A stretch of 32,766 nucleotides of DNA from Fidelibacterota bacterium. Lineage in GTDB: Bacteria > Fidelibacterota > Marinisomatia > Marinisomatales > SCKK01. The stretch spans positions 1 to 32,766 of the forward strand of contig SCKK01000041.1 in NCBI GenBank assembly GCA_004124475.1, in the 5' to 3' direction. This document shows positions 30-32,639 of the stretch, piece by piece; position 1 is the first letter of the stretch; each line of letters begins with the position of its first letter. A program made the position numbers and the translations under genes. Below the pieces are notes generated by a model. It did not search any database, was not told the DNA's origin, and saw nothing but the letters and a program-made list of their open reading frames with translations.

Positions 30-130
30 TTGTGCTCCTCGTTTTTGTTTGGAAAAGAGGAAGCAAGAATACGGCAGCTTGACCCCTTCTTAAAACAATT
101 GAGATGCACTTAATAGTTGAATTCAAGAGG

Positions 131-136
131 TATAAT
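131..136 (+). promoter_or_regulatory. Candidate -10 box for the DHFR-like gene
   Basis: A perfect TATAAT lies 78 bases before the ATG at 215. No good -35 box is present at 16-18 bases. Transcription from here would start downstream of the earlier in-frame ATG at 104, which supports the ATG at 215 as the true start. Confidence 0.35.
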
Positions 137-214
137 ATCCCAACCTGCCAGGTTTTAAAAGAAATTTTAGTTCCTATTTGGTTGTTACTTCTCTCTTTTC
201 TAATTTTTTGGTAT

Positions 215-664
215 ATGGATATTATCTTAATTGCGGCAGTAACGGCCAATGGTATGATTGCCCATCATTCTGACGAGGTGATTGAATGGTCTTTGGACTT
301 GGCTCTTTTCAGACAGCAGACCATGGGTCATACAGTGATAATGGGATCCAACACAGAACGAACCCTTGCCACCGACCTCGATGGTAGAAATGTAATTGTG
401 ATGCATAGAGATATGGACCCGAGAGAGGTACTTAAAAACATCAAAGATGAAAAGTGTTATATTATTGGAGGTTCACGGACATACACCCGGTTTGCCCCTT
501 ATTTAACACATCTCTACCTGACTTTTCATCCCCTCATTTTATCGAGCCAATCTCTTCATCTATTTACTGCTTTAGGAAATGACATCGATTTAGAATTCAT
601 AGGAAAAATTGAAGTAGATGGAGAAAAAGGTGTTTATCAGTTTCAGTATAGGGTAAAACAGTGA
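215..664 (+). CDS. Dihydrofolate reductase-like protein
   Basis: The 149-residue product has the DHFR fold pattern: an N-terminal strand IILIAAVTANGMIA, then a Trp-25/Asp-28 pair matching the active-site W and D of bacterial DHFR, then TMGHTVIMG, and the NADPH-binding IIGGSRTY near residue 105. It should reduce dihydrofolate to tetrahydrofolate in the cytosol. Length is close to the usual 160. An in-frame ATG at 104 would add 37 hydrophobic residues, but the DHFR alignment starts at 215 and a TATAAT lies between the two, so 215 was chosen. The visible loop is one residue shorter than in E. coli FolA, so a divergent DHFR or a RibD-C-like reductase cannot be excluded. The hydrolase gene follows with no gap. 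Confidence 0.75.
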   Translation: MDIILIAAVTANGMIAHHSDEVIEWSLDLALFRQQTMGHTVIMGSNTERTLATDLDGRNVIVMHRDMDPREVLKNIKDEKCYIIGGSRTYTRFAPYLTHLYLTFHPLILSSQSLHLFTALGNDIDLEFIGKIEVDGEKGVYQFQYRVKQ

Positions 665-5419: not shown

Positions 5420-5611
5420 GAATCGCCTAAAACAAACAGGGCTTCATTGCTGGATTATTTATGCAAATTGTTGCAGCCCCAACTACAGCTTAGGAAAAAT
5501 GAAATAGATGTTTATTTCCTGCGGTTAGATGTGAGAGGAATCCGAAATGGGAAACCAGACAGGTTGGTTTATCATATGATTGATTACCGATATTTGGGAA
5601 AAGGGGAATAA
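5420..5611 (+). pseudogene. C-terminal remnant of a saccharopine-dehydrogenase-like protein
   Basis: A frame without a credible start codon is open from just after the TAG at 5417-5419 to the TAA at 5609-5611. Its translation, with stretches LLDYLCKLLQPQLQLRKNE, IDVYFLRLDVRGIRNGKP and LVYHMIDYRYLG, resembles the C-terminal domain of bacterial saccharopine dehydrogenase/reductase proteins (pattern LLEPKL-x-x-GE-x-D-x-x-x-LRVEV-x-G, then Y-x-x-IDRYD). The N-terminal NAD-binding domain is absent upstream and the last residues are missing. It is therefore a decayed leftover in the 337-base gap between the secreted protein and the methyltransferase pair. Family assignment is from memory. Confidence 0.5.
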
Positions 5612-5756
5612 AAGTGATACGGAGGTGAATAATCTATTTCAGGTTTTAAGGTTAAACAGATTTAAATAATATTTATCAAACGTTGCTAGCAGGCTTTCCT
5701 TTCCGGAGTTTGTTTTTGCCGACGAAGCGCTTTAGTTTGTTTCCTACTCACTGCAT

Positions 5757-6686
5757 ATGACTTACAATATTATCAAAGAAAAGCTTTCAACCGGCAAACC
5801 TGTTATGCTGGACGGTGGTATTGGAACTGAAGTACTACGCCGCGGCGTCCGCTGGCGTCAGCACGGCATCAAAGATGCACCGGGTGTAATTCGTGATATT
5901 CATTTAGACTATCTAAAAGCTGGGGTTGATGTTCTTACCACCCACACATTTAATTTGACCAAGCGTAACTTTATCAACTTCTTCCGGGATACAGATCATA
6001 TGGCCTTAATTGGTGCCGCCGGTCTTAACACGAAAGCAATGGAATTGTGCCACGCTGCAGTGTATTTAGCTAAAGAAGCATTAGCAGAGTCAGGCAAGGC
6101 AGAGAAGGTACCACTGGCTGGTTCCATTGCACCTGTTATGCATTTATTCCGTCCTGATCTTTCACCATCTGAAGACGATTGTCTAACTCATCATAGAGAG
6201 TGTGTAGAGATTCTCTCAGATTGTGGTGTTGACCTTATCTTTTTTGAAGGCATGAATAACACCAGGGAGGCAAAGGCGGCCCTGCAGGCGGCCGCAGGGT
6301 TCGATCTGCCTGTGTGGATGAGTTTTGTTCCTGGTATAGATGGTAATCTGTTAAGTGGTGAATCGCTCCTAGATGCGGCGGATCTTGCCCGCAGCCAGGG
6401 TGCTGAAGCAGTTCTCGTTTCCGCTGCGAGTTTACCCATGATAATGAAAAGTCTACCCAATATTATTAATGGATCACCGTGCGGCGCCAAGGCTATCATT
6501 GGCAGATACAGCCCACCAAGCTGGAAGCCTGACTTTTATCCCAATTTCGTAGACACCGATGAAGTATCACCGGAAAAATATGCTCAGGAAGTAAATATCT
6601 GGTTGGATCAGGGTGTTCAGATCGTGGGTGGTTCCAGTGGAACAACACCTGAACATATCCGCGCTATGCGGGGAATGATAGGTTAA
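5757..6686 (+). CDS. Homocysteine S-methyltransferase paralogue lacking the zinc cysteines
   Basis: 309 residues of the homocysteine S-methyltransferase (Pfam S-methyl_trans) TIM barrel, with the opening motif MLDGGIGTEVLRRG at 17-30. The neighbouring paralogue carries the three canonical zinc ligands (as human BHMT C217, C299, C300). Here they read A224, S293 and S294: VSAAS replaces LNCAP and GGSSGTTP replaces GGCCGTTP. Without zinc the usual thiolate activation of homocysteine should not work, so it may be a partner or regulator of the next gene product, or an enzyme on a different substrate. The frame is intact and the length normal, which argues against simple decay. It is the first gene of a two-gene operon; the next start is four bases after its stop. 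Confidence 0.85.
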   Translation: MTYNIIKEKLSTGKPVMLDGGIGTEVLRRGVRWRQHGIKDAPGVIRDIHLDYLKAGVDVLTTHTFNLTKRNFINFFRDTDHMALIGAAGLNTKAMELCHAAVYLAKEALAESGKAEKVPLAGSIAPVMHLFRPDLSPSEDDCLTHHRECVEILSDCGVDLIFFEGMNNTREAKAALQAAAGFDLPVWMSFVPGIDGNLLSGESLLDAADLARSQGAEAVLVSAASLPMIMKSLPNIINGSPCGAKAIIGRYSPPSWKPDFYPNFVDTDEVSPEKYAQEVNIWLDQGVQIVGGSSGTTPEHIRAMRGMIG

Positions 6687-6690
6687 AGCC

Positions 6691-7599
6691 ATGAGCTATA
6701 AAGAATTAAAAAACAGAATAGATGCCCAGCAGGTAACGTTTCTTGATGGTGGCATTGGCACAGAGATACTACGTCGGGGCTACACTTGGGCCAGTCACCA
6801 GTTAAAAAGTGAACCGGAATTGAATCTGGAGATTCACCAGGATTACATAAATGCAGGTGCAGACGTGATCACCACGAACACCTTTCAACTCAGCAAACGC
6901 AGCTTTCGAAATCATTTCGCTAATGATGAACACCTGGCAGCTATTGGTGCCCGGGGGCTAATGGATCGGGCTGGTGAATTAATTCATGAATCGGTTGCCC
7001 TGGCGGATAAAGCGCGCCGCTCACTTGATCATAATGACACTCTGATTGCCGCTTCTATTACCACCCTGGAGTGGTGTTTTAGGCCGGACCGCAGCCCGGA
7101 TGTTGAAGAAATATATGACGAATATTTGGAAGAGTTGACAGACTATGCCGATGCCGGCGCCGATATTTTCCTGTTTGAGACATTCAATTCAACCCCGGAA
7201 GCAGAGGTGGCAATCAAGGCTGCAAAAAAAATCGGCAAACCAGCATGGGTAGCCTTTGTGCCCTATCAGGACGGCTGCCTTCTGGGAGGCCAGTCCATGG
7301 CGGAGGTGGCAGATGCCATGGCCCGCAACGAACCGGATGTACTTTTGTTAAACTGTGCTCCGCCTGATCATATCACTGCAGGTCTGGAGCAGCTGGCACC
7401 GTTGTGGGACAAACCTTTAGGCGTTTATGCCCACGTGGGAAAATTCAATCCCCCCGAATGGCAGTTTACCGATGAATATAATGCGGATCGGCATCTGCAG
7501 GAATGCAAGCACTGGCATGATCTTGGTGCGACAGTTATTGGGGGCTGTTGTGGAACAACGCCGGACTATATTAAAAAACTGACTCAGTTTTTTCGCTGA
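6691..7599 (+). CDS. Homocysteine S-methyltransferase family protein (zinc ligands intact)
   Basis: 302 residues, a paralogue of the preceding gene with the same opening motif (FLDGGIGTEILRRG). Zinc-binding cysteines are present: C222 in LLNCAPPDH, and C286 and C287 in GGCCGTTPDYI. The family moves a methyl group from a donor (betaine, S-methylmethionine, a folate or a corrinoid) to homocysteine to make methionine. The donor cannot be read from sequence alone; the single-domain length fits BHMT/MmuM-like enzymes rather than full-length MetH. The adjacent convergent operon of amine-oxidising and aminomethyl-transferring enzymes suggests a methyl group derived from a methylated amine or amino acid. 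Confidence 0.9.
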   Translation: MSYKELKNRIDAQQVTFLDGGIGTEILRRGYTWASHQLKSEPELNLEIHQDYINAGADVITTNTFQLSKRSFRNHFANDEHLAAIGARGLMDRAGELIHESVALADKARRSLDHNDTLIAASITTLEWCFRPDRSPDVEEIYDEYLEELTDYADAGADIFLFETFNSTPEAEVAIKAAKKIGKPAWVAFVPYQDGCLLGGQSMAEVADAMARNEPDVLLLNCAPPDHITAGLEQLAPLWDKPLGVYAHVGKFNPPEWQFTDEYNADRHLQECKHWHDLGATVIGGCCGTTPDYIKKLTQFFR

Positions 7600-7600
7600 G
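7583..7600. terminator. Weak bidirectional terminator
   Basis: CTCAG (7583-7587) pairs with CTGAG (7596-7600) across a T-rich loop at the end of the methyltransferase gene. Downstream on the plus strand is ATTTTTCTTTTT; on the minus strand TTTTTT follows four bases after the stem. It suits two convergent genes ending at 7599 and 7636. The stem is short. Confidence 0.35.
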
Positions 7601-7635
7601 CTGGATTTTTCTTTTTCTCGTTTTCTGATATCCCC

Positions 7636-9213
7636 TTAACGACGCTGTCGTTTCAGAATTTCGTGGGCGGCGTTAAAGCCATTGGTTCCGTGTAATCCGC
7701 CGCCTGGGTGAGTCCCCGGACCGCAGAGATACAGGTTTTCAATGGGCGATTTATACTGAGCAGAACTCATGGTGGGGCGCATGAAGAAAAATTGATCCAA
7801 GGTCATTTCGCCATGGTTCAAATTCCCTTCCGTAAGCCCCAATTTTTCTTCCAAATCTACGGGTGATAATACAACAGCCGCTTCAATCAAAGTTGAAAAG
7901 TTAGGAATATAATTTTCCAAAACACGGACCACATTATTTTTCAATTGATCTTTTAATCCCTTGGTCCAACTTTGACCACGTAAATGATAAGGTGCATACT
8001 GCACAGTAGCGGATAAAACATGTTTTCCATAGGGAGCAAAGCCGGGATTGATCACCGAAGGAAGTGTGAATTCCACATATGGATTTTCGGAAATCTGTCC
8101 ATATTTTGAAGCATCATAGGCTTTTTCTAAATAACTTATTGATGGAGCAACACTAAAAACCGTACCCATATTGTGTTTTGCCACGCCATTGATTTCAGGT
8201 AGGCTGTTTAATGCAAAATGGACACGAGCTGCACTACCACGGAATTTGAGATTTCTGATTTGGGTATGAAATCTGGGATTTAATTTTACGGCGCCAATAA
8301 GATTGATAAAGGTGTTCCTGGGGTCTAATCCGGACACAACTTTTTCTGTTGCAAGTGATTCTCCTTTGGTAAGTGTTACACCGCTGCATATATAATTGGC
8401 CACATCAATGGATTTCACTTTTGCATTGGTGCGAATTTTTACACCAGATGATTGTGCAGATTTCCTTAATGCACCTGCCAGATTCCCCGTTCCACCCTTC
8501 ACTAAATGTACGTTGTGAAACACACCTTTGGCATAGACATGCTGGTGCAGCAGGTTGAGTCCCGTTGCTGCAGAAAACGGTCCTTGTGTGATGTGGTGAA
8601 TTCCTGCCGTGGACAATGCACCGCGGAGTAACTCCGACTCAAACCATTCATCCATGAGTTCAGGCATCATCATTGGTGCCACGCGCATGAAGTTCACCAA
8701 ACCACGGGTACCTTGTTTTATAACTGGTGAGAGCATGGAACGCAGGGATAAAGCTTCCTTGAGTCCAATATCCGGGAGTTTGGGTGGTGTTAATTCATAA
8801 AGTTTTTCTAAAAATTTCGTCAGGTTGTTAATGTATTCTGTGAACCCCTTCCAAGCCTTGGCGTCTTGTTTTGAATGGGTTGAAATGGATGTTGCAGTTT
8901 GGTCAGCATTGCGGTGAAATAAAATATGTTGACCATTTATATCCAGTGCGATTCGGACAATATCAGGTGAAGTTAATTCCAAACCGTAAGACCCAAGATC
9001 CAGTATTTTCATTACTCTTGGATCGACCCACTTTACAACGTCATTCACCAAATTGCATTTATATCCCGCCGCAAATTCTGTTGTGGATGCCAAGCCGCCA
9101 ACTTGTTCCTGTGCTTCCACGAGCAAAACCTTTTTCCCGGATTGGCCAAGAACTGCAGCCGTGATTAAACTGTTCACCCCACCGCCGACAACAATAATAT
9201 CGTAGTGTTCCAT
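7636..9213 (-). CDS. FAD-dependent oxidoreductase, PYROXD2/phytoene-desaturase-like (second copy)
   Basis: 525 residues from the ATG at 9213. The codon overlaps the TAA of the upstream gene by one base (TAATG), so translation is probably coupled; an upstream extension to 9297 would duplicate the neighbour's coding region. The N-terminal Rossmann motif is YDIIVVGGGVNSLITAAVLG with an acidic ribose-binding end, LVEAQEQVGG. The C-terminal FAD contact is CGPGTHPGGGLHGTNG. These mark the NAD(P)/FAD oxidoreductase family that includes PYROXD2. The substrate is not predictable by homology. In this operon an amine or N-methyl amino acid is a fair guess, and carotenoid genes are absent. It is the last gene of the operon. 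Confidence 0.85.
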   Translation of the reverse strand: MEHYDIIVVGGGVNSLITAAVLGQSGKKVLLVEAQEQVGGLASTTEFAAGYKCNLVNDVVKWVDPRVMKILDLGSYGLELTSPDIVRIALDINGQHILFHRNADQTATSISTHSKQDAKAWKGFTEYINNLTKFLEKLYELTPPKLPDIGLKEALSLRSMLSPVIKQGTRGLVNFMRVAPMMMPELMDEWFESELLRGALSTAGIHHITQGPFSAATGLNLLHQHVYAKGVFHNVHLVKGGTGNLAGALRKSAQSSGVKIRTNAKVKSIDVANYICSGVTLTKGESLATEKVVSGLDPRNTFINLIGAVKLNPRFHTQIRNLKFRGSAARVHFALNSLPEINGVAKHNMGTVFSVAPSISYLEKAYDASKYGQISENPYVEFTLPSVINPGFAPYGKHVLSATVQYAPYHLRGQSWTKGLKDQLKNNVVRVLENYIPNFSTLIEAAVVLSPVDLEEKLGLTEGNLNHGEMTLDQFFFMRPTMSSAQYKSPIENLYLCGPGTHPGGGLHGTNGFNAAHEILKRQRR

Positions 9214-10793
9214 TACCAGTCCCTTAAGATCTTTTTGGCAGCCATTTCCCCGGGAGATCCGGTGATCCCGCCGCCGGGATGGGTTCCGGAACCGCATTGA
9301 TAATAGTTGGTGATCGGCGTTTTATAATTGGCCCATTTTACCGCCGGACGCATGACAAACAATTGCTGCAGGGTCAGCTCACCGTGGAAAATATTACCTT
9401 CCGTCAGGCCAAAAGTGGATTCCAAATCAGCCGGTGTCAGCACCTGCCGATGCAAAATGATATCCTTGATGTTGGGTGCAAACCGGGCAATGGTATTGAC
9501 CACCGCATCGCCGAAGGCTTCCCGCTTTTGATCATCCCATCCGCCTTTGATGTCATAAGGTGCATATTGTACAAAGCAGGACATGATGTGTTTTCCAGGC
9601 GGCGCCATTTCCGGATCTAGGACTGACGGTAAAATAATATCAATGTAAGGCTCCTGGGAAAAATTGCCGTACTTGGCATCGTCGTAGGCCTTTTCCAAAT
9701 GATCATAACTGGGGCTGATGGAGATGGCTCCGCGAAGATGTGGACCATCGCCGGGCAGGCTGGTGAAATTGGGTAGTCTATCCAAAGCCAGGTTCACTTT
9801 CCCGGATGAACCGCGGATGCGAAAGTTTTTGATGTCTGTTACAAAATCCGATGGCAGATCACTTTCATCCACCATTTTCAAAAAGGACAGTTTTGGGTCC
9901 AGTCCGGAGATCACCTTTTCAGCTTTGTATTCGTCTCCATTTACAAGTGCGACTCCCACTGCGCGTCCATTTTCGACAATGACTTTTTCAACAGGTGCTT
10001 CAGTTATGATCTCTGCACCAAAATGTTTAGCCGAGCGGGCAATGGCCATACTGACTGCACCCGTTCCACCGCGCTGAAAGCCCCAGGCGCGAAATGCCCC
10101 GTCAATGTCGCCCACATAATGGTGCAGCATTATATAGGCCGATCCTGGTGAACGCGGACCCATAAATGTACCTATGATTCCGCTGGCAGACATGGTGGCC
10201 TTCAGGGGCTCAAATTCGAACCATTCATCCAAAAAGTCCGCTGAACTCATGGTCATCAGTTTGGTTAAATATTCGAACTGCTCATCATTCAAGGCTTTAA
10301 AGTGATCAAATAATCTTTTGGTAGCTGATAGATCGGATAAACTGGGACGAATGACATTGGGCGCGATTGTTTCCAGAATCGGCCGTACGGCCATCCCGAT
10401 CTGTCCCATGAGTGGACCGAAGCGGTCATATGCTTCCGCATCTTTGGGAGAGTGGCGATAGATCTCACGGCGGGTCTGGTCATGGTCGGAGGTGCGCAAC
10501 AGGTAATCATGATCCAACGGTGTAAATGTACTTTCCAGGGGCAGGAGTTCTAGACCGAATTTTGGAAGCATCAATTCGCGAATGATAGTTGGTTTCAGCA
10601 GACTGACCACGTATGAACAGACAGAGAACTTGAAACCGGGAAAAACTTCTTCCGTAACTGCGGCACCACCTAAGACATAGCGTCTTTCCAATACCAATAC
10701 TTTTTTCCCGGCTCGAGCAAGATAGGCGGCAGTGGTTAGTCCGTTGTGCCCGCCGCCGATGACAATGGCATCGTAGGATTTTATAGCGGACAT
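9213..10793 (-). CDS. FAD-dependent oxidoreductase, PYROXD2/phytoene-desaturase-like (first copy)
   Basis: 526 residues, a paralogue of the next gene. FAD-binding motif YDAIVIGGGHNGLTTAAYLA at 8-27, then VLERRYVLGGAA; C-terminal signature CGSGTHPGGGITGSPG. The start at 10793 has AAGGA seven bases upstream and overlaps the end of the aminomethyltransferase gene by 13 bases. The protein should use FAD to oxidise a small molecule; electron acceptor and substrate are unknown. The tandem duplication, with clear divergence between the copies, suggests two successive oxidations or a heteromer. No signal peptide is visible, so it is probably cytosolic. Confidence 0.87.
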   Translation of the reverse strand: MSAIKSYDAIVIGGGHNGLTTAAYLARAGKKVLVLERRYVLGGAAVTEEVFPGFKFSVCSYVVSLLKPTIIRELMLPKFGLELLPLESTFTPLDHDYLLRTSDHDQTRREIYRHSPKDAEAYDRFGPLMGQIGMAVRPILETIAPNVIRPSLSDLSATKRLFDHFKALNDEQFEYLTKLMTMSSADFLDEWFEFEPLKATMSASGIIGTFMGPRSPGSAYIMLHHYVGDIDGAFRAWGFQRGGTGAVSMAIARSAKHFGAEIITEAPVEKVIVENGRAVGVALVNGDEYKAEKVISGLDPKLSFLKMVDESDLPSDFVTDIKNFRIRGSSGKVNLALDRLPNFTSLPGDGPHLRGAISISPSYDHLEKAYDDAKYGNFSQEPYIDIILPSVLDPEMAPPGKHIMSCFVQYAPYDIKGGWDDQKREAFGDAVVNTIARFAPNIKDIILHRQVLTPADLESTFGLTEGNIFHGELTLQQLFVMRPAVKWANYKTPITNYYQCGSGTHPGGGITGSPGEMAAKKILRDW

Positions 10794-12010
10794 GACCGTT
10801 TCCTTTCAGGATTAAAAAAGGGTGATTCAACGACTTTTATAGGTGTGAGCTTGCGGAAGTGTTCAACTTTCAATTCAAAATCCAGTTGAGTTCCCAATCC
10901 TGCATATTCAGATTTTACATGGGCGAGAGCAATATAACGTTTCAAAATAGGTGACCAGGTGCCGCTGGTAGCATAGCCCACCTGTTCATTGTTTTTGTAT
11001 ATTGGTGTGCTGATCCGCCAGGCAAGACTTGGTAGGCCCGGGGGAAGTCCAACTTTCCTGAAATGATCTTCCAATTCATTCCATTCAATTTCAATTCCTA
11101 CAAACTCCCATTCAGGTCCACGAGCCTGCTCTAATTCTAAAGCTTTTTTCCCGATAAAGTCTTTTTTTTTCATTTTTACAGTCCAGCCCAAACCTAATTC
11201 GTATGGTGATGATTTACGGGATTCAATAATGGCATGGCGGGCGGAGACATAATCCACATCCAGCAAAATTAACCCCGCTTCAATGCGAACCATATCCAAA
11301 GCATGAAGGCCTGTGGGCGTGATGCCGTATGGCTTACCCTTCTCCATAAGCAAGTCCCAGACAGCCAGGGCATCTTTGGGATCCATCCAGATCTCATAAC
11401 CAAGATCACCGGTGTATCCTGTTCGTGAAATGGCAACGGGAATATCATTTAACCGTGCTTCCATCATCCAAAAAAATTTGAGACTATCTAAAGAATCGCT
11501 ATCAATGGTATTTAGAATGGCACGGGAGTTTGGTCCCTGCAGAGCAAGTGCGGCTGTGGTTTCAGAATCATCTACCACATTTACGTCCATGCCGGAAGCA
11601 TTTTGCAAAATCCATTCCAGATTGGGTTCGGCGCTTGTAATTCTGAATTTCTGGTCCCCTAATCTCTGGACGGTACCATCATCAATCTGCTTTCCGGCTT
11701 CGTCACACCAGGGCGTATACATGACCTGGCCCACCTTGCAGATGCCAATATTACGCGTCACCAATCGATCCAGGCAATGCTGTGCCTCGGGGCCTTCCAA
11801 TATGTATTTTTGAAGTGGCGTGATATCCAAAAGGGCGGCCTTAGTACGGATGGCAAAATATTCGTTATCGTGAACTAGGTCGTATTTTGTGGCGGACAGA
11901 TATCCGCCCCAGCGGCGCCATTCCTGGGATTCATTCAGTTTGGATGTGCGTTCGAAAAAGGGAGACAGCCTGAGTTGGGTGTGGGCCGTGAACTGGTTTC
12001 CGTAGCTCAT
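10781..12010 (-). CDS. Aminomethyltransferase (GcvT/T-protein superfamily)
   Basis: 409 residues, somewhat longer than a standard T-protein (about 365). Folate-binding GcvT hallmarks are visible: an acidic pair D110-D111 in QIDDGTVQRL, where the catalytic Asp of GcvT sits, LALQGPNSRA near residue 155, and SRTGYTGDLGYEIW at 195-208; a C-terminal barrel domain follows. Members transfer a one-carbon unit from an aminomethyl or methylthio compound to tetrahydrofolate (glycine cleavage, sarcosine or dimethylglycine oxidation, DMSP demethylation). No GcvH or GcvP gene is nearby. Instead it sits between a dimethylargininase-like gene (four-base ATGA overlap) and FAD oxidases, so a demethylase role is more likely than glycine cleavage. 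Confidence 0.88.
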   Translation of the reverse strand: MSYGNQFTAHTQLRLSPFFERTSKLNESQEWRRWGGYLSATKYDLVHDNEYFAIRTKAALLDITPLQKYILEGPEAQHCLDRLVTRNIGICKVGQVMYTPWCDEAGKQIDDGTVQRLGDQKFRITSAEPNLEWILQNASGMDVNVVDDSETTAALALQGPNSRAILNTIDSDSLDSLKFFWMMEARLNDIPVAISRTGYTGDLGYEIWMDPKDALAVWDLLMEKGKPYGITPTGLHALDMVRIEAGLILLDVDYVSARHAIIESRKSSPYELGLGWTVKMKKKDFIGKKALELEQARGPEWEFVGIEIEWNELEDHFRKVGLPPGLPSLAWRISTPIYKNNEQVGYATSGTWSPILKRYIALAHVKSEYAGLGTQLDFELKVEHFRKLTPIKVVESPFFNPERKRSCPL

Positions 12011-12903
12011 GATGCGGATCTAAAAAACGGTCGTGTTAAGCAAGTGGGACCTCCAGCACCTTTCAGGGATATTTCTGTGCCATTATAGGTATGAACTTCT
12101 ACACCCTCCGCTTCCAATCGATCCTGCGTGATGGGGTTGCCTTCAATCATGATACATTTACGCGGCGCTACAGCCAATACATTACAGGCTATGGATTCGT
12201 ATTCTCCATCCGGGACTTCCACCAGTTTGATGCTGCGGTCAATTAAATACTGGCGAAAAGGAACGGGCAGGAGCCGGGAATAAACCAGGTAGAAATCGTG
12301 GTCGATGGGACTCACATTGCTCATCAGGTGCAGGCATTCACCTGGGCCATTCCAGTGGGGCAGCGGAACTGAAATGATGTCGTCAACCAAATCACCAAGT
12401 ATTATCTTAAACTGGCGAATACCCTCCACATTGGTGCGGTAGCCTTCACCAACGGCAACAGTCCGTTCATCAATCCATACCACATCGCCGCCTTCAAGCG
12501 TGCCGGGAGCTTGAATTTGTCCTAAAATGGGAACACCAATTCCATTAAAAAATGTTTCCATTGCTGCCGGTTCGGGTATGCGTTCAGGTTTTCCCATTGT
12601 ACATAAAACTACACCATTATTTGTGATGACACAGGGATCATGGGCATAGATTGAGTCTAGAGAGGTTTCAGCGTCAGATGGTAAATAATGGATTTCTACA
12701 TCGAATGATTGTAAACATTGAACAAATTGATCATAGTCTGACTGTGCTTGGTCAAAATTTGGTTCCGAAATATAATTCAATTGCTTGTATTGGTTAGTGA
12801 TAGTTTCCTGGTTTTGATAAGCATCCTTGGGGTGTTTCAAGAGGACTCGGCGGATGGGATCCACCATGTTCTGGCAGCCGAAATTCTTATTCAATGATCC
12901 CAC
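12007..12903 (-). CDS. Dimethylargininase (DDAH)-like amidinohydrolase
   Basis: 298 residues of the guanidino-modifying superfamily. The early FGCQNMVDPIRRVLLKHP is typical of DDAH proteins. The catalytic triad is complete: E137 in TLEGGDVVW, H192 in GECLHLMS and C288 in GGPTCLTRPF. D89 in YAHDP is a likely guanidinium contact. Such enzymes hydrolyse methylated arginine to citrulline plus methylamine or dimethylamine; related members act on arginine or other guanidines, so the substrate is uncertain. The start codon is GTG at 12903 with no clear ribosome binding site, overlapping the peptidase remnant by 17 bases, so coupling is likely; a TTG at 12894 is the alternative. Confidence 0.87.
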   Translation of the reverse strand: MGSLNKNFGCQNMVDPIRRVLLKHPKDAYQNQETITNQYKQLNYISEPNFDQAQSDYDQFVQCLQSFDVEIHYLPSDAETSLDSIYAHDPCVITNNGVVLCTMGKPERIPEPAAMETFFNGIGVPILGQIQAPGTLEGGDVVWIDERTVAVGEGYRTNVEGIRQFKIILGDLVDDIISVPLPHWNGPGECLHLMSNVSPIDHDFYLVYSRLLPVPFRQYLIDRSIKLVEVPDGEYESIACNVLAVAPRKCIMIEGNPITQDRLEAEGVEVHTYNGTEISLKGAGGPTCLTRPFFRSAS

Positions 12904-13336
12904 ACCAATTTACTATCAGGTTTGCAATCACTTTCACGGTAGTTAATATGTCATCAATTCTAACATATTCGTTGGCTGCATGGGCCCGAATTAAATCGCC
13001 AGGGCCATAAAGAACGGCGGGGATCTTACCATGGTTGGTGAACAGACGTAAGTCAGTACCATTGGTAACTCCTTCAATAATTGGAGCATTGCTCGTTGCC
13101 ATTAAATGGCTTTTTATAAGTGTTTTAATTACATGAGGATCTTTTATCTGATCAAATTGGATGGGGACTTTTTCCACAGCCAGTCCTAGGGACTTTATTT
13201 TATCTGCAATTAATTCTTGAACTGGTCCTTCGTCGTTAGCCAAACTGGGCGCTCGTGCGGCGGATTGTACAAATTCAACAATTTCATCTTTGTGGGCTGA
13301 TACCGCTTGTGAGATTTGGTCTTTGATATTAGTCAT
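12887..13336 (-). pseudogene. M20-family metallopeptidase with large in-frame internal deletion
   Basis: The 149 residues contain only the two ends of an ArgE/DapE-type peptidase. Residues 1-65 match the N-terminus (EIVEFVQSAARAPSL, then VQELIADKIKSLGLAVEKVP). Residues from about 68 match the C-terminus (GVTNGTDLRLFTNHGKIPAV, then YGPGDLIRAHAANEYVRIDD). Family members are about 400-430 residues, so roughly 250-280 residues are missing at a junction near 13140. The lost part includes the HxD and EE zinc/catalytic motifs and the dimerisation domain, so the product cannot be an active peptidase. The reading frame survives the junction. The start overlaps the permease end by eight bases. Confidence 0.85.
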
Positions 13337-14285
13337 GCTTCTTCCAATAATAATAGAGTGGTAATCCAGCCAGAATTATCCCAGCGCCAATGGCTGCATC
13401 CCGGGGGGCTTCTATGATGGTGTTAATGGTTACCAGGACAACGCCTTTTTCTCCCAGGAATATGGAGGCGGAATCAGAAACCACGAAATCGGATGCCCCC
13501 ATGGCGTCAATTCCCAGCGTATAGGTAAATACAAGATTAATTAGCAGATAAATGGAGGTAACGATGAGCATGCAAAAAATGAGGGAAAGGGGAATATTTC
13601 TTCCCGGATTTTTCACTTCACCCACCACGTAGGTGATAAAAATCCAACCGTCATACGTCCACAATACTGATACCATGGCCAGTCCCAAGGGACCTACCAT
13701 ACTGGTTAAGGGTTTATCAAAAATGAAGGGCTGAATATTTTCTATCGAGCCGCCATCCATGACGAGTCCCAGGATAATGATGCCCATAATAGCGCCAATT
13801 TTTGAAAGGGTGAATACATTTTGCGCGCGGGCACCTGCTTTCACATCAATAATATTTAATATAGTGAGTAGAATTACGGAGGTAATAGCAATCCCCTTGA
13901 TTTGCCAATCGGTAAATGGAAAAAAGAAACTAAGGTATTCCGAAAATGCCACGCCGATAGCCGCAATAGTAGCTGTGTTGATCACGGCGATAGCCGACCA
14001 GCCATAGAGATAGCCCCAGACTGGACCATAAGCCTCATTCAGGTAGACAAACTGTCCGCCGGCACGGGGGGCATGGCCGCCCCCAGCTCGGCCACAGACA
14101 AGGCACCAAAAAGGCTGACGATGCCCCCTAGAATCCATACCGTTAAAATTAGTGAAGTTGAAACCGGTGAGCAGGGCCACTGTGGCCGGTACCATGAAAA
14201 TTCCCGAGCCAATGATACCCCCGGTGTTAATCATGGTCGCGTCCAGGAGTGATAAAACCCGTTCCAGTTTCGGTTGTTCAGACAT
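13329..14285 (-). pseudogene. APC-superfamily amino acid permease with compensated frameshifts and internal deletion
   Basis: The family motif GGIIGSGIFMVPATVALLTG opens an L-type-like amino acid transporter and several membrane segments follow. Two lesions are visible. Between about 14163 and 14066 the reading frame is scrambled. A neighbouring frame there encodes the expected second helix (ILTVWILGGIVSLFGALSV), so an extra T near 14163 and two extra C's in the six-base run 14066-14071 add up to three. In addition, residues around 292 jump from GEKGVVLVT to INTIIEAPRDA, the last helix of the family, which means about 130-150 residues are missing near 13430. ATG at 14285 is preferred over the TTG at 14303. 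It heads the operon but is probably inactive. Confidence 0.82.
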
Positions 14286-14739
14286 TGTGCTAGGTTTGAT
14301 CAAGGCGGGATTTGGATTCCCGTCAGACTAAATTTAAGAATTTTCCTGTTGGACAGCATGTACCCCCAGCGGAATTTACAACCTACTGACTGACGCACAA
14401 CAAAAAAACTCCTGTCTCACTAGGACTCTTTTAACAGATAGACTTGGACAGGTTGTCTCTCATTCATCGCCAACGCTCGGTGCGTATGCACTAGTGGATC
14501 ACGAACCCCTTGTACTATCCAGCCTAATTCCCGCTATCGTTTTTGTTATCGCGGTGCTTGAAAGCCGTTGTCAGTGGAGGTGTAGGATGACAGCAGTCGG
14601 CTCGAAACGGTCAATCGGGGTTATGCTGCATTTCTTAATATTAAAAAAGTGACAATACTTCTGCCAGTTCTGCAGGTAAAAGAAGGGGTGAGTTCAGCGT
14701 GGGGTAAGGTGAAGAAACTTCTTTCAGGGGAGGAGAAAC
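14286..14739. other. Gene-free spacer upstream of the permease operon
   Basis: About 450 bases without a convincing reading frame on either strand. A small CGGGA/TCCCG hairpin lies just upstream of the permease start. I found no tRNA-like clover-leaf, group II intron end, riboswitch or recognisable insertion sequence. It may hold decayed sequence. Confidence 0.5.
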
Positions 14740-24656: not shown

Positions 24657-27600
24657 TTACCTTATTGCCGTAACACCCACCGTAAAAATGGCACCCACAA
24701 AAGCCAAGAGCAAGGGCCAGCTTGTAGAGATAAACTGTTGTGCACTTGGGTCTTCAAACACGTGAATCTGGAATTCGTGCGATGTGGCTGCACCTCGCTC
24801 ATCAATGGCTGTGATAATAATGTCATTAACCCCTCTTTGGTTTATTCTTGGTTTCCATCTTAAAAGACCAGTTTTTTCATCAAATCTTGCATACTTGGGG
24901 AGTTTAACGGGACGCAATTTTACCTTGTCCCCGTTCAGGTCTTCCACTGCCATGCGGTAGCGATATTCAAAATTAGTAAGAGCGACAGGCTTTGGTTGGG
25001 AAATGACAGAGGGTGGCATATTAACGAACAATTTTGACTCTTGGCGATCTTCCGAATATCCATCTGAAACTTTAACCGAAAACAGTCTGCTGTTTATTTG
25101 GGAGGCGGTAGGAATCCATGTAATTTTACCATTCCGGGTGATTTGCATTCCTTTGGGTGATTTAAGAAGTTCGTAGGTTAATTTCTTGTCTCTGTTCTTA
25201 TCTTCTACCACAACCTTATACTTATAAATCTGATCCACACGAGCTGTTTTCGGTGGGGTTGAAATGATTGTGGGAGCATGGTTTACATAAAGGTCGAAAC
25301 TCTGTTCGTCTTTGGTGTAGCCATCTGACACTATGAAAGTAATGGTATGGGAATCATATTGTTTTAATGAGGGAGTCCATGTAAGAACTCCTGTGAGTTC
25401 ATCTACAAACATGCCGTCAGGAAAATCGAGAAGGGTATACCTTATCAGCGGCAATCGATCTACCAGAACTTTGGGCGGTTTACCTTTGTTTCCCTCAAAG
25501 AAGTGCCACAGAATATCTTTAATTTTTATCCACCTGCCACCGACCCTTTTTGTCACAACGATGAGTTGATCGTCTTCGTAAAAAATATCCTGTACGAATT
25601 TTTTAAGGTTCACACGAGCAACTACATTCTCTCTATCAGGACCCTTTTCATCAAACTCAATAAGGATGGATTTTTTACTTTTAAACTCCCCGATATATCG
25701 TTCGATATTTTCTCTATACACATCGTCTTCAACGGTTATTGCATAGACTTTTGTATTTTTGAAGTCATACACGGGGGTAACCTTTGCGAAGGTCATAAGA
25801 GAACCCTGATTCAAATCATGGGTGCCAATCTGGTAAGTGTACGGCTTGCCTACCGCAGCAAGAGTGGGCGGTTCGGAAATAATATGGATGGTAGCATTCA
25901 CGTAAAAGTCGAATGTTTTTTCGATGAAAACATGTCCATCAGTAATTTCAATAACTGCTGTAGAAAAGTCTAAATTCTCTTCAGTGGGTACCCACAGCAA
26001 TCGCCCTGTAGCGGGATCGATTCTCATACCAGGCGGCATTTCCACAGGATTATATCTGACCATGTCGAATTCGTTGGGCTCATAAGCTTCAAAACGAAAA
26101 TCCAACGTATCAAATAAGGAGACTTTTGTCATAGGATCCAAAGCCATAGTCAAAACAGGTGGATGATTAACGAATATAGCCACATGTTGTGTATCCGCTG
26201 CGATCCCATGGTTAACCACCACCACATATTTTTGCGTGTCTATTTGTGTGCTTTGGGGTGTCCATGTTACAAGACCTGTGTAATCCACCATCATCCCGTA
26301 CGGTGATTTAAACAGTGAATAATGGAGTTCCTGTTGTTTTTCTTTCGGTATTTGAACAGCTAATTGATATTGGTACAATTCATTCACAGATGCTTCAAAA
26401 ACCGGTTCGGACGTGATGACTACTTGACCGCGGGAGTAAAGTCTGAAAGATTGAACATCCCTGTCAAATCCATCTGACACGACAGCTCTGACACCGTAAA
26501 TATTCACATGGCTGTCATCGGTCTGCCAGGAAATAAAACCGGTTTGATCTACGGTCATACCTTCAGGTGATTTTTCCAAAGAATAGTGTAAGTAGGCATC
26601 TTCGTTTGCGTCGGTTACCGTCAATTGGTAGCTGAAGAGAGTCCCAGCTACAAACTCTGTAACCGGAGGAGTTGAAGTGATGACCGGAGGATCGTTGACA
26701 TAAATCCAAAATCGCTGATCCAGGGAAGCAAGCTCCGGAACAACCTGATACATAACAATGCTATCTTCTTCCGATATAATGATATCGACGGTTTCACCAA
26801 CCTTCATCCTGAGATTAAAAGACAATTCATAGGCGCCCAATTGTGTGTTGTCCGGAACCCATTCAATGGAGCGGGTTTCATAGTGGAAGTACATCCCTCG
26901 AGGGGGGGGGGTCAGCCACCGAAAGCTGAAGAATTCTCGGTCGTCTTCTTCGGAAATTGTGAATGCAAAGGTCTGATGTACCGGTAAAATATAAGAGGGG
27001 AGTATCCCAGGAGGCAGGGGAACGCCTTCCATGGGTACTGAAGGCGCCGGCTCCTCGATAATTTCTTCAATTTTTGTCTGGGGAATGTAAGTATCTACCA
27101 GGATTTCTTCTGGATATTCCGGGATAAGTCCGAGCTCAAAATAAAATATCTCGCTTTCTTTACCCGTCCACCCGCCGGCGATGACTGTACCTAAATAGAT
27201 ATCATCTACAATTTCAGGTAATACGGAGAATATCTGAGCCACACCGTTTGTTTCGTCCCCTGCTACGGAATAAGATTCCTGTAAGGGAATCATCCCCGTA
27301 CCGCCTCCATAGGCAAGCGTGACAATTCCCTGCTGACCGCTTACCAAAAGGAGATCTTGTCTGCCATCCTGATTGAAGTCTGCCTGTTTCAGATCGGAGA
27401 GAGGTCCTGCATCTATACCTAATTCACGGATATCGATGGTTCTATCAGATGGAGAGATGGAGACTACATGTCCTGATTGAAAGGGGATTAGAAGATCGTC
27501 ACGGTTGTTGTTATCCCAGTCAAGAGTAACTAGGGAATGGTACAACACTTCCGACATACCCGGTACCCGATAGAGAGCATCAGGACCGGAAACAAGAGTT

Positions 27601-30533: not shown

Positions 30534-31091
30534 ATGGGAATTACCATTAAAGACATTGCACAAATTGCTGGAGTTTCGACTTCCACCGTATCATTGATCA
30601 TATCAGGTAAAGGTTATGTGAGTGGCGATACGAGGGAAAAAGTTCGGAAAATTATTGATGAGTATAATTACAGACCCCTTCGTAGCGCCAGGCAATTAGC
30701 CTCGAATAAAACAGGGAACATTGGATTCATAATTTCCGATGTACACCTATCCCGGTCAGAAGCATTTTACTCGCGTATTTTATTAGGCGCTGAAGTTGAA
30801 GCCGTAATTTGTGTAAATGATACAACTGCTCTGGGATGTCTTCAACAACTCAGAGAGCAAAGCAGAAGAATTCCGGAAGATATAGCCGTCATTGGGTTTG
30901 ATGATAATTATTATGCAAGCGTGATGCACCCCCCCCTATCTTCTATCTATGTTCCAAAAGTCGAGATGGGGATGGCTGCGATGAAGTTACTTAAGGAACG
31001 GATTGAAAACCGCAAGCAGTTGTGTCAGACTCGTGTTATCCCAGTAAAATTAGTTGTCCGCGAATCAAGTATGCAGAATCATATCATATAG
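30534..31091 (+). pseudogene. LacI-family regulator with in-frame internal deletion
   Basis: 185 residues instead of about 335. The N-terminal helix-turn-helix and hinge are intact (TIKDIAQIAGVSTSTVSLII, then YRPLRSARQLAS) and the effector domain begins normally (NIGFIISDVHLS). Near residue 90, at about 30804, GAEVEA jumps to VICVNDTTALGCLQQL, which in the family lies about 150 residues further on. The C-terminal lobe then continues to its usual end (IGFDDNYYASVMHPPLSSI, with an eight-C run at 30929-30936). The sugar-binding cleft must be destroyed. DNA binding could survive, so a constitutive repressor is possible. Function is doubtful but the reading frame is kept. Confidence 0.8.
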
Positions 31092-31106: not shown

Positions 31107-31784
31107 TCAGGCTTCTACAAATTCGGAGTAAACTCCATCCAGAAAGTGCCTCAACGCTTTTGCAGCCTTTTCCGCTGCATTCAAAACCTTTTCCTGGACC
31201 TCGTCAGTTGTGCAGTTATTCTTTAGAATGTTCTGTTCGACCTTGCGGTGGATAAGGTCAGCTACTTCGTGAACAGTAAAGAACGAAACGGTCCGGTCGT
31301 CGTCAATCCCATAGAAACGTTTTAATCCCTCCCGCTTCGTTTGGGAGACTTCAGGAATCTGAGACTCATAAGCGTAGAGGGCAGCGAGACCTTCCAGGTA
31401 ATTTTCGCTTTGGGTGAGTGATTTTAGCATCTTCACCGATTCACGGGTATTGTGAAGTAGATTCGCGTTTTCCACTTCTTCACGGCTAACGCCAAGTCCT
31501 TCTGCAAACCGGAGCCATAATTCAGGGTGGTTTTCTTCACCTGCTTCCTCTTCCACAAGGTTTTCAAGCAGCATCTGGCGGAGTTTCAGATCATCGCAGT
31601 GAGAATGGACGGCGCTGACGTAGGTGGGAAAAGCGTGAACCTGTGCGAAATACTGTTTAGAATATTCCTGGATTGTCTTCAGGGGTAGTTCACCCCGATT
31701 CCACATCTCGTAAAATGGATGGGTAAGCATGCTGTGTTGTTCAATGGTATTGTCTAACTTTTTTAAAAAGACTTTTGCTTTCAA
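31107..31784 (-). CDS. CADD-type self-sacrificing para-aminobenzoate synthase
   Basis: 225 residues from a TTG at 31784 with a perfect AGGAGGT nine bases upstream. An ATG reading from 31844 lacks such a site and adds 20 unrelated residues. All residues I recall as essential in Chlamydia CADD are present at a constant offset of two: the cleaved Tyr27 (here Y25 in HPFYEMW), Tyr43 (Y41), metal ligands Glu81 (E79), His88 (H86), Glu142 (E140), His174 (H172), Asp178 (D176) and His181 (H179), plus Tyr141 (Y139) and Lys152 (K150). CADD makes para-aminobenzoate for folate from its own tyrosine, using a dimetal centre and oxygen. The gene is a single unit; folate partners are not adjacent, though a DHFR-like gene lies at the other end of the window. 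Confidence 0.92.
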   Translation of the reverse strand: MKAKVFLKKLDNTIEQHSMLTHPFYEMWNRGELPLKTIQEYSKQYFAQVHAFPTYVSAVHSHCDDLKLRQMLLENLVEEEAGEENHPELWLRFAEGLGVSREEVENANLLHNTRESVKMLKSLTQSENYLEGLAALYAYESQIPEVSQTKREGLKRFYGIDDDRTVSFFTVHEVADLIHRKVEQNILKNNCTTDEVQEKVLNAAEKAAKALRHFLDGVYSEFVEA

Positions 31785-31976
31785 TGTTGTTTTACCTCCT
31801 ATTGTGTGATGTTTGGGAAAATACCTTTCGCATAGATTAGGCACATAGAACTGTATCAGGCAAGGGATTTAATCCCATTTTTTAATGATGATAGATCAGA
31901 ATGGAACAGGCTTTTCTTTTGATCAAAATTATCATAATCTTCCCGCCAAAAATTTGAATAAGGAGGAAAAGTATTC

Positions 31977-32639
31977 ATGGCACATTTAAAGAAAGTTGAA
32001 GTATCGAAACAATCCTGGGATGCACTCAGACCGGACCTTCTTGTTTTGGGTCTTTTGGAAAAGGAAGAATTGTCCTGTTTTTATAAGGAAGTGGATGGTG
32101 CTTCAGGTCAGGTCATTTCGAACTGCCTTTAGACGGGTGATTTTTCGGGTAAACATGGAAAAACAGTGATTCTCTATTCCGGCGGTCGAGCTCGGCGCCT
32201 GCTTCTCGTGGGACATGGGAAGCGGTAAGAATTTTTGCTGGATAAACTGAGGCAGGCAGCCGGATCTGCCATCAAGACAGCACAAGCCAGGAAATGAGAA
32301 TCTTTAACTGCGGAAGTTTTCAGACAAGACGGATTGAATGAATCCGATTCGGTAATATTGATAAACAGTCCGGATAAAACTGGGGCAATTCGAGGACAGA
32401 TAATTGCAGAAGCAGGCTGTTTTGTTCGGGACCTTGTTTCCTATCCAAGTAACGTGGTTACTCCCAGTCGTCTCGCTTTAGAGGTGAGAAAAATTGCCAG
32501 ACAAAGCGAAGTTTCCTGAAAGGTGATGGATAGGGATCAATTCACCAAACTAGGGATGGGCTCTTTTGCGTCACTGGTGAGAGGAACCGATGAGCCGCCA
32601 AAATTCATATTGCTGACATACAATGGCAGCAAGAAGGAC
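31977..32639 (+). pseudogene. Leucyl aminopeptidase (M17) pseudogene with four in-frame stops
   Basis: A good start (AAGGAGG upstream of the ATG at 31977) opens a frame that matches the N-terminal half of PepA/M17 aminopeptidases: SWDALRPDLLVLGL, TGDFSGKHGKTVILY, RLLLVGHGKR, AGCFVRDLVSYPSNVVTPSR, LGMGSFASLVRGTDEPPKFI. It is broken by TAG at 32130, TAA at 32226, TGA at 32295 and TGA at 32517, all in one frame, with no obvious frameshift between them. Homology stops at YNGSKKD (32639), just before the catalytic metal-binding domain, where an insertion sequence begins. The catalytic half is missing, so it cannot encode an aminopeptidase. Confidence 0.88.

Follow-up and report, generated by a model that had tools for sequence, protein, structure and literature searches.

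An intact CADD-family gene in a Fidelibacterota genome, predicted to encode a self-sacrificing p-aminobenzoate synthase

Results

The CADD-type gene and its product

The window, i.e., the whole stretch of DNA analysed here (32,766 nucleotides), is one complete contig (C58) of a 3.15 Mb assembly of Candidatus Marinimicrobia/Fidelibacterota estimated to be 95.4% complete; its relevant features are collected in Table 1. The gene that an earlier note had recognised as CADD-type has an intact reading frame with a TTG start, 225 residues and a stop codon, and the frame, the family score, the alignment to CADD and the fold all agree with that assignment. Among the NCBIfam models, the protein clearly matched TIGR04305, "CADD family putative folate metabolism protein" (1.1e-84, 283.3 bits, cut-off 200). 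Its top matches in the PDB were the CADD structures of Chlamydia trachomatis (1RCW and 8VA9, about 6e-47 to 9e-47), and another 4-aminobenzoate synthase, 9PJ4, which is probably NePabS (NE1434), was also among the best ones. A PADLOC search gave no match.

Table 1. Positions of the CADD-type gene, its predicted functional elements and other features of the window
Feature	Position	Strand	Evidence
CADD-family gene, predicted self-sacrificing p-aminobenzoate synthase	31107..31784	(-)	TIGR04305 score, CADD structure matches, AlphaFold/Foldseek
Shine-Dalgarno sequence AGGAGG, ten bases ahead of the TTG start	31795..31800	(-)	sequence
Codon of Tyr25, predicted sacrificed tyrosine (CADD Tyr27, NePabS Tyr25)	31710..31712	(-)	alignment, invariance
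Codon of Lys150, predicted sacrificed amino donor (CADD Lys152, NePabS Lys159)	31335..31337	(-)	alignment, invariance
Stretch with the predicted dimetal ligands Glu79, His86, Glu140, His172, Asp176, His179	31248..31550	(-)	CADD alignment
LacI-family regulator, internally deleted by 465 bp between near-repeats of 13 bp; a neighbour outside the pathway	30534..31091	(+)	344-aa full-length copy in G070
Leucyl-aminopeptidase-like pseudogene with in-frame stops; neighbour, outside the pathway	31977..32638	(+)	translation; family name is a reading of the translation
IS element end with the C-terminal part of an IS630-like transposase, bordering the contig end	32639..32766	(-)	100% identical copy near a G070 contig end; IS630 type is a reading of the translation
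DHFR-like protein, possible later folate step (domain from about 215)	104..664	(+)	PF00186, 60.6 bits, cut-off 25

Catalytic residues and predicted fold

The alignment with the chlamydial CADD has its first gap only beyond the last ligand, and up to there the numbering differs by exactly two residues, just as the note had claimed for the ligands and the sacrificial tyrosine. The corresponding pairs (this protein/CADD) are Tyr25/27, Glu79/81, His86/88, Glu140/142, Lys150/152, His172/174, Asp176/178 and His179/181; the second sacrificial residue, Lys150, which the note had left out, is conserved too. In a survey of 74 sequences from many phyla (54 family sequences plus 20 further homologues), Tyr25, Tyr41, Tyr45, Glu79, His86, Trp90, Glu140, Lys150, Asp176 and His179 did not vary at all, and His172 was unchanged except in one row, where an ambiguous base obscures its codon. 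NePabS cannot do without Tyr25, Tyr41 and Lys159, and Tyr45 and Trp99 are of importance to it as well (PMC11965152).

The AlphaFold2 model, built from an alignment of 22 family members, had a mean pLDDT of 95.5 and a pTM of 0.91, and Foldseek ranked the CADD structures first (8VA9: 1.5 Å, TM 0.90/0.94), followed by PqqC, UndA and BesC. An oxygenase of the same heme-oxygenase-like type but with another substrate (PqqC-, BesC-, UndA- or TenA-like) would have this common fold, and the models for PqqC (TIGR02111), BesC and thiaminase II TenA (TIGR04306) did score, with 62, 41 and 19 bits, respectively. We regard such an identity as highly improbable, because these values fall far below the cut-offs of 240, 500 and 130, whereas the CADD score exceeds its own, and because the CADD-specific sacrificial pair of Tyr25 and Lys150 is invariant in the family set. 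On the curated cut-offs, the identities PqqC, BesC and TenA were rejected.

Folate and pABA genes in the genome

FolP is encoded in this genome, and the genes for FolB and FolK are adjacent on another contig (C3); the CADD-type gene has no folate gene beside it. The DHFR-like gene at the opposite end of the window, cited in the note in favour of an active folate route, is real according to PF00186, though a divergent member. A search with the chorismate-binding model PF00425 gave two matches, namely TrpE (563 bits, cut-off 518), encoded by the first gene of the trp operon, and a MenF-like protein from the men operon, which matched isochorismate synthase best, slightly under the cut-off of that model. 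Neither reached the PabB cut-off, so PabB was not found in the assembly, where the approximately 5% possibly missing could hide a pabB gene. The two matches to PF01063 were an IlvE and a protein resembling branched-chain aminotransferases that scored under the PabC cut-off; a TrpG is also encoded and might in principle take the part of PabA, which is moot without PabB. The check for a complete pabABC set, named in the note as an observation that would count against its proposal, thus did not speak against it. Taken together, the score, the six ligands, the sacrificial tyrosine and lysine, the fold and a folate context without PabB place the protein in the CADD/PabS family, the last of these features being supporting rather than strictly defining.

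The locus in comparison with a sister genome

Between positions 26574 and 31108 the window is about 96% identical to a contig of the sister genome G070, the lacI deletion aside, and at the CADD stop codon G070 departs into an unrelated stretch, with one gene that we read as glycosidase-like. The near-repeats flanking the lacI deletion are CTGAACTTGAAGC. FolP was detected in G070, and neither CADD (TIGR04305) nor PabB was found there; the gene may therefore be dispensable where pABA or folate is taken up. A gain here, a loss there or a rearrangement could each possibly account for the difference. The G+C content of the CADD-type gene, 46% (49% at third positions) vs. 33–44% in the backbone genes sampled, fits a transfer without being proof of one.

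Such a gene might also be a passenger in a region under decay, recently gained and non-functional or dispensable: it is flanked by the internally deleted lacI and by a pseudogene cut by an IS element, it is absent from the collinear G070 contig, and its G+C content departs from that of the backbone. We nevertheless find this very unlikely, given that the frame, the Shine-Dalgarno sequence and every catalytic residue have stayed intact while the neighbours decayed, and that the genome searches turned up no second route to pABA. The gene is an intact member of the CADD family and, judging from sequence, model and analogy, very probably encodes a pABA synthase that uses its own tyrosine.

Elsewhere in the window, a 9.2-kb block (5460–14642) of higher G+C than the rest is missing from the collinear G070 contig. 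It carries two homocysteine methyltransferase-like, two phytoene-desaturase-like, GcvT-like and arginine-deiminase-like genes, along with fragments of an M20 peptidase (149 aa, the middle gone) and an amino acid permease (the C-terminal part gone), which at 12887–14303 resemble internally deleted genes.

CADD and PabB across the phylum

The TIGR04305 cut-off was passed in 51 of the 245 phylum genomes. PabB-like genes, which we called in a TIGR00553 search at 230 bits or more, requiring also either a frame as long as PabB (not TrpE) or a fusion, were present in 72. Both were clearly present in one genome, against 50 with CADD alone, 71 with PabB alone and 123 with neither; Fisher p is 6e-8 counted by genome, 0.009 for the genomes of at least 90% completeness and 0.008 counted by genus, all uncorrected for shared ancestry. 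CADD and PabB-like genes are thus close to mutually exclusive, which indicates that CADD stands in for PabB across the phylum. The genome with a clear CADD and a clear PabB is G191 (L089, L070), and a second one is ambiguous.

FolP is nearly universal, passing its cut-off in 219 of the 245 genomes, yet about half of the phylum genomes show no recognised pABA source; of the 123 that have neither gene, more than 40 reach a completeness of 90% or higher. They may rely on uptake, their genes may have been missed, or they may use a route not described so far. The folP neighbourhoods of 11 such genomes offered no obvious candidate for a third route to pABA; in nearly all of them, folP has an ftsH-like gene on one side and a cdaA-like gene on the other. 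The long FolP frames seen in some families are due to N-terminal extensions. In three genomes of family f9 (G042, G043 and G058), the CADD genes have internal stops or split frames, and these are possibly pseudogenes or assembly errors. The phylum assignment is backed by two identical pairs of CADDs: that of G024, a genome of the same order, equals the one in Marinimicrobia UBA2986, and that of G152 equals the one in another Marinimicrobia MAG.

In the tree, the protein groups with homologues from Planctomycetota, KSB1, Myxococcota and the Marinimicrobia families f14 and f20 (98/94 support, some branches being long), apart from most Marinimicrobia CADDs; families f9 and f25 are placed elsewhere again. 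The Rickettsiales homologues adjoin folate genes, and in Chlamydia and Wolbachia the CT610 homologues are part of clusters with folABKP (PMC1971073).

Discussion

In this work, we followed up a CADD-type gene of a Fidelibacterota bacterium and consider it highly probable that its product is a heme-oxygenase-like dimetal oxygenase belonging to the CADD/PabS family, which makes pABA from itself and replaces PabA, PabB and PabC. The note's prediction of folate precursor synthesis from the protein's own tyrosine gains support from the family, the catalytic residues, the fold and the search for PabB. By analogy with the characterised homologues, the reaction would be a single turnover, each enzyme molecule reacting once. 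The dimetal centre, held by three histidines and three carboxylates, would activate O2, and a radical would travel via aromatic residues to Tyr25, whose side chain would be cut off, leaving a glycine behind. The ring would become pABA, with both carboxylate oxygens coming from O2 and the amino group donated by Lys150, and the product would feed FolP. The genome contains a heme-copper oxidase gene, suggesting that the host uses O2, which the predicted reaction would need.

The folate role of the family was predicted from gene clustering as early as 2007 (PMC1971073), and members are known in Nitrosomonas, Rickettsia, Wolbachia and Chloroflexi; NE1434 of Nitrosomonas rescues an E. coli pabABC mutant and makes pABA in vitro (PMC11965152). 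The novelty implied by the note's wording, "outside Chlamydia", is weakened accordingly, the family being curated and one of its published non-chlamydial members characterised. A literature search for Marinimicrobia and aminobenzoate returned nothing relevant. What is new here is the site difference from the approximately 96% identical G070, the Tyr139/Phe168 state and the half of the phylum genomes without a known pABA route. With this gene, a widespread phylum joins the known range of an unusual single-turnover way of making an essential vitamin precursor; in this phylum, many FolP-carrying genomes are without a recognised source of pABA.

Tyr139 and Phe168 occupy two positions that vary in the family. 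The chlamydial CADD, a Mn/Fe enzyme, has Tyr141 and Tyr170, and NePabS, an Fe/Fe enzyme, has Phe148 and Phe177; its F148Y variant is about equally active with both metal sets, and F177Y switches to Mn/Fe (PMC11965152). Since Tyr139/Phe168 corresponds to the pair that F148Y creates in NePabS, the Fidelibacterota protein may be able to use either Fe/Fe or Mn/Fe. This state is the commonest among the sequences sampled (55 of 74, against 16 with Tyr/Tyr) and has no characterised natural example; the Tyr/Tyr pair was found in all 11 sequences sampled from Marinimicrobia family f9, with genome sizes of about 1 Mb or below. We put forward tentatively, with more doubt than confidence, that both characterised pABA synthases are minority variants at these two metal-tuning positions, that the common Tyr139/Phe168 form works with either metal set and that the Tyr/Tyr enzymes of f9 (and f25) prefer Mn/Fe. 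The variation of this aromatic pair amounts to a natural test of the residues that set metal choice.

Among the known systems, CADD (CT610) of C. trachomatis (1RCW/8VA9) shares with the Fidelibacterota protein the fold (1.5 Å), the six ligands, the sacrificial pair Tyr27 and Lys152 at the offset of two, and Tyr141. It differs in having Tyr170 in place of Phe168, the identity being about 39%, and in its location within a folate gene cluster; a part in host-cell apoptosis has also been reported for CADD, but nothing leads us to expect one for the Fidelibacterota protein. The planctomycete CADD (L005, Planctomycetota MAG bin_em_oilr2.004) has 63% identity, the highest found in genome_contigs, and the same residue signature, but its gene opens a same-strand array CADD-folP-folB-folK (7917–10852; gene names from translations). 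NePabS (NE1434) of Nitrosomonas europaea, with its Fe/Fe centre, differs by Phe148 where Tyr139 stands here and by a nine-residue insertion ahead of the first ligand. It shares all the ligands, both sacrificial residues and the phenylalanine at the position of CADD Tyr170, and, just like the Fidelibacterota gene, it belongs to a free-living host and lies away from the folate genes of the pterin branch.
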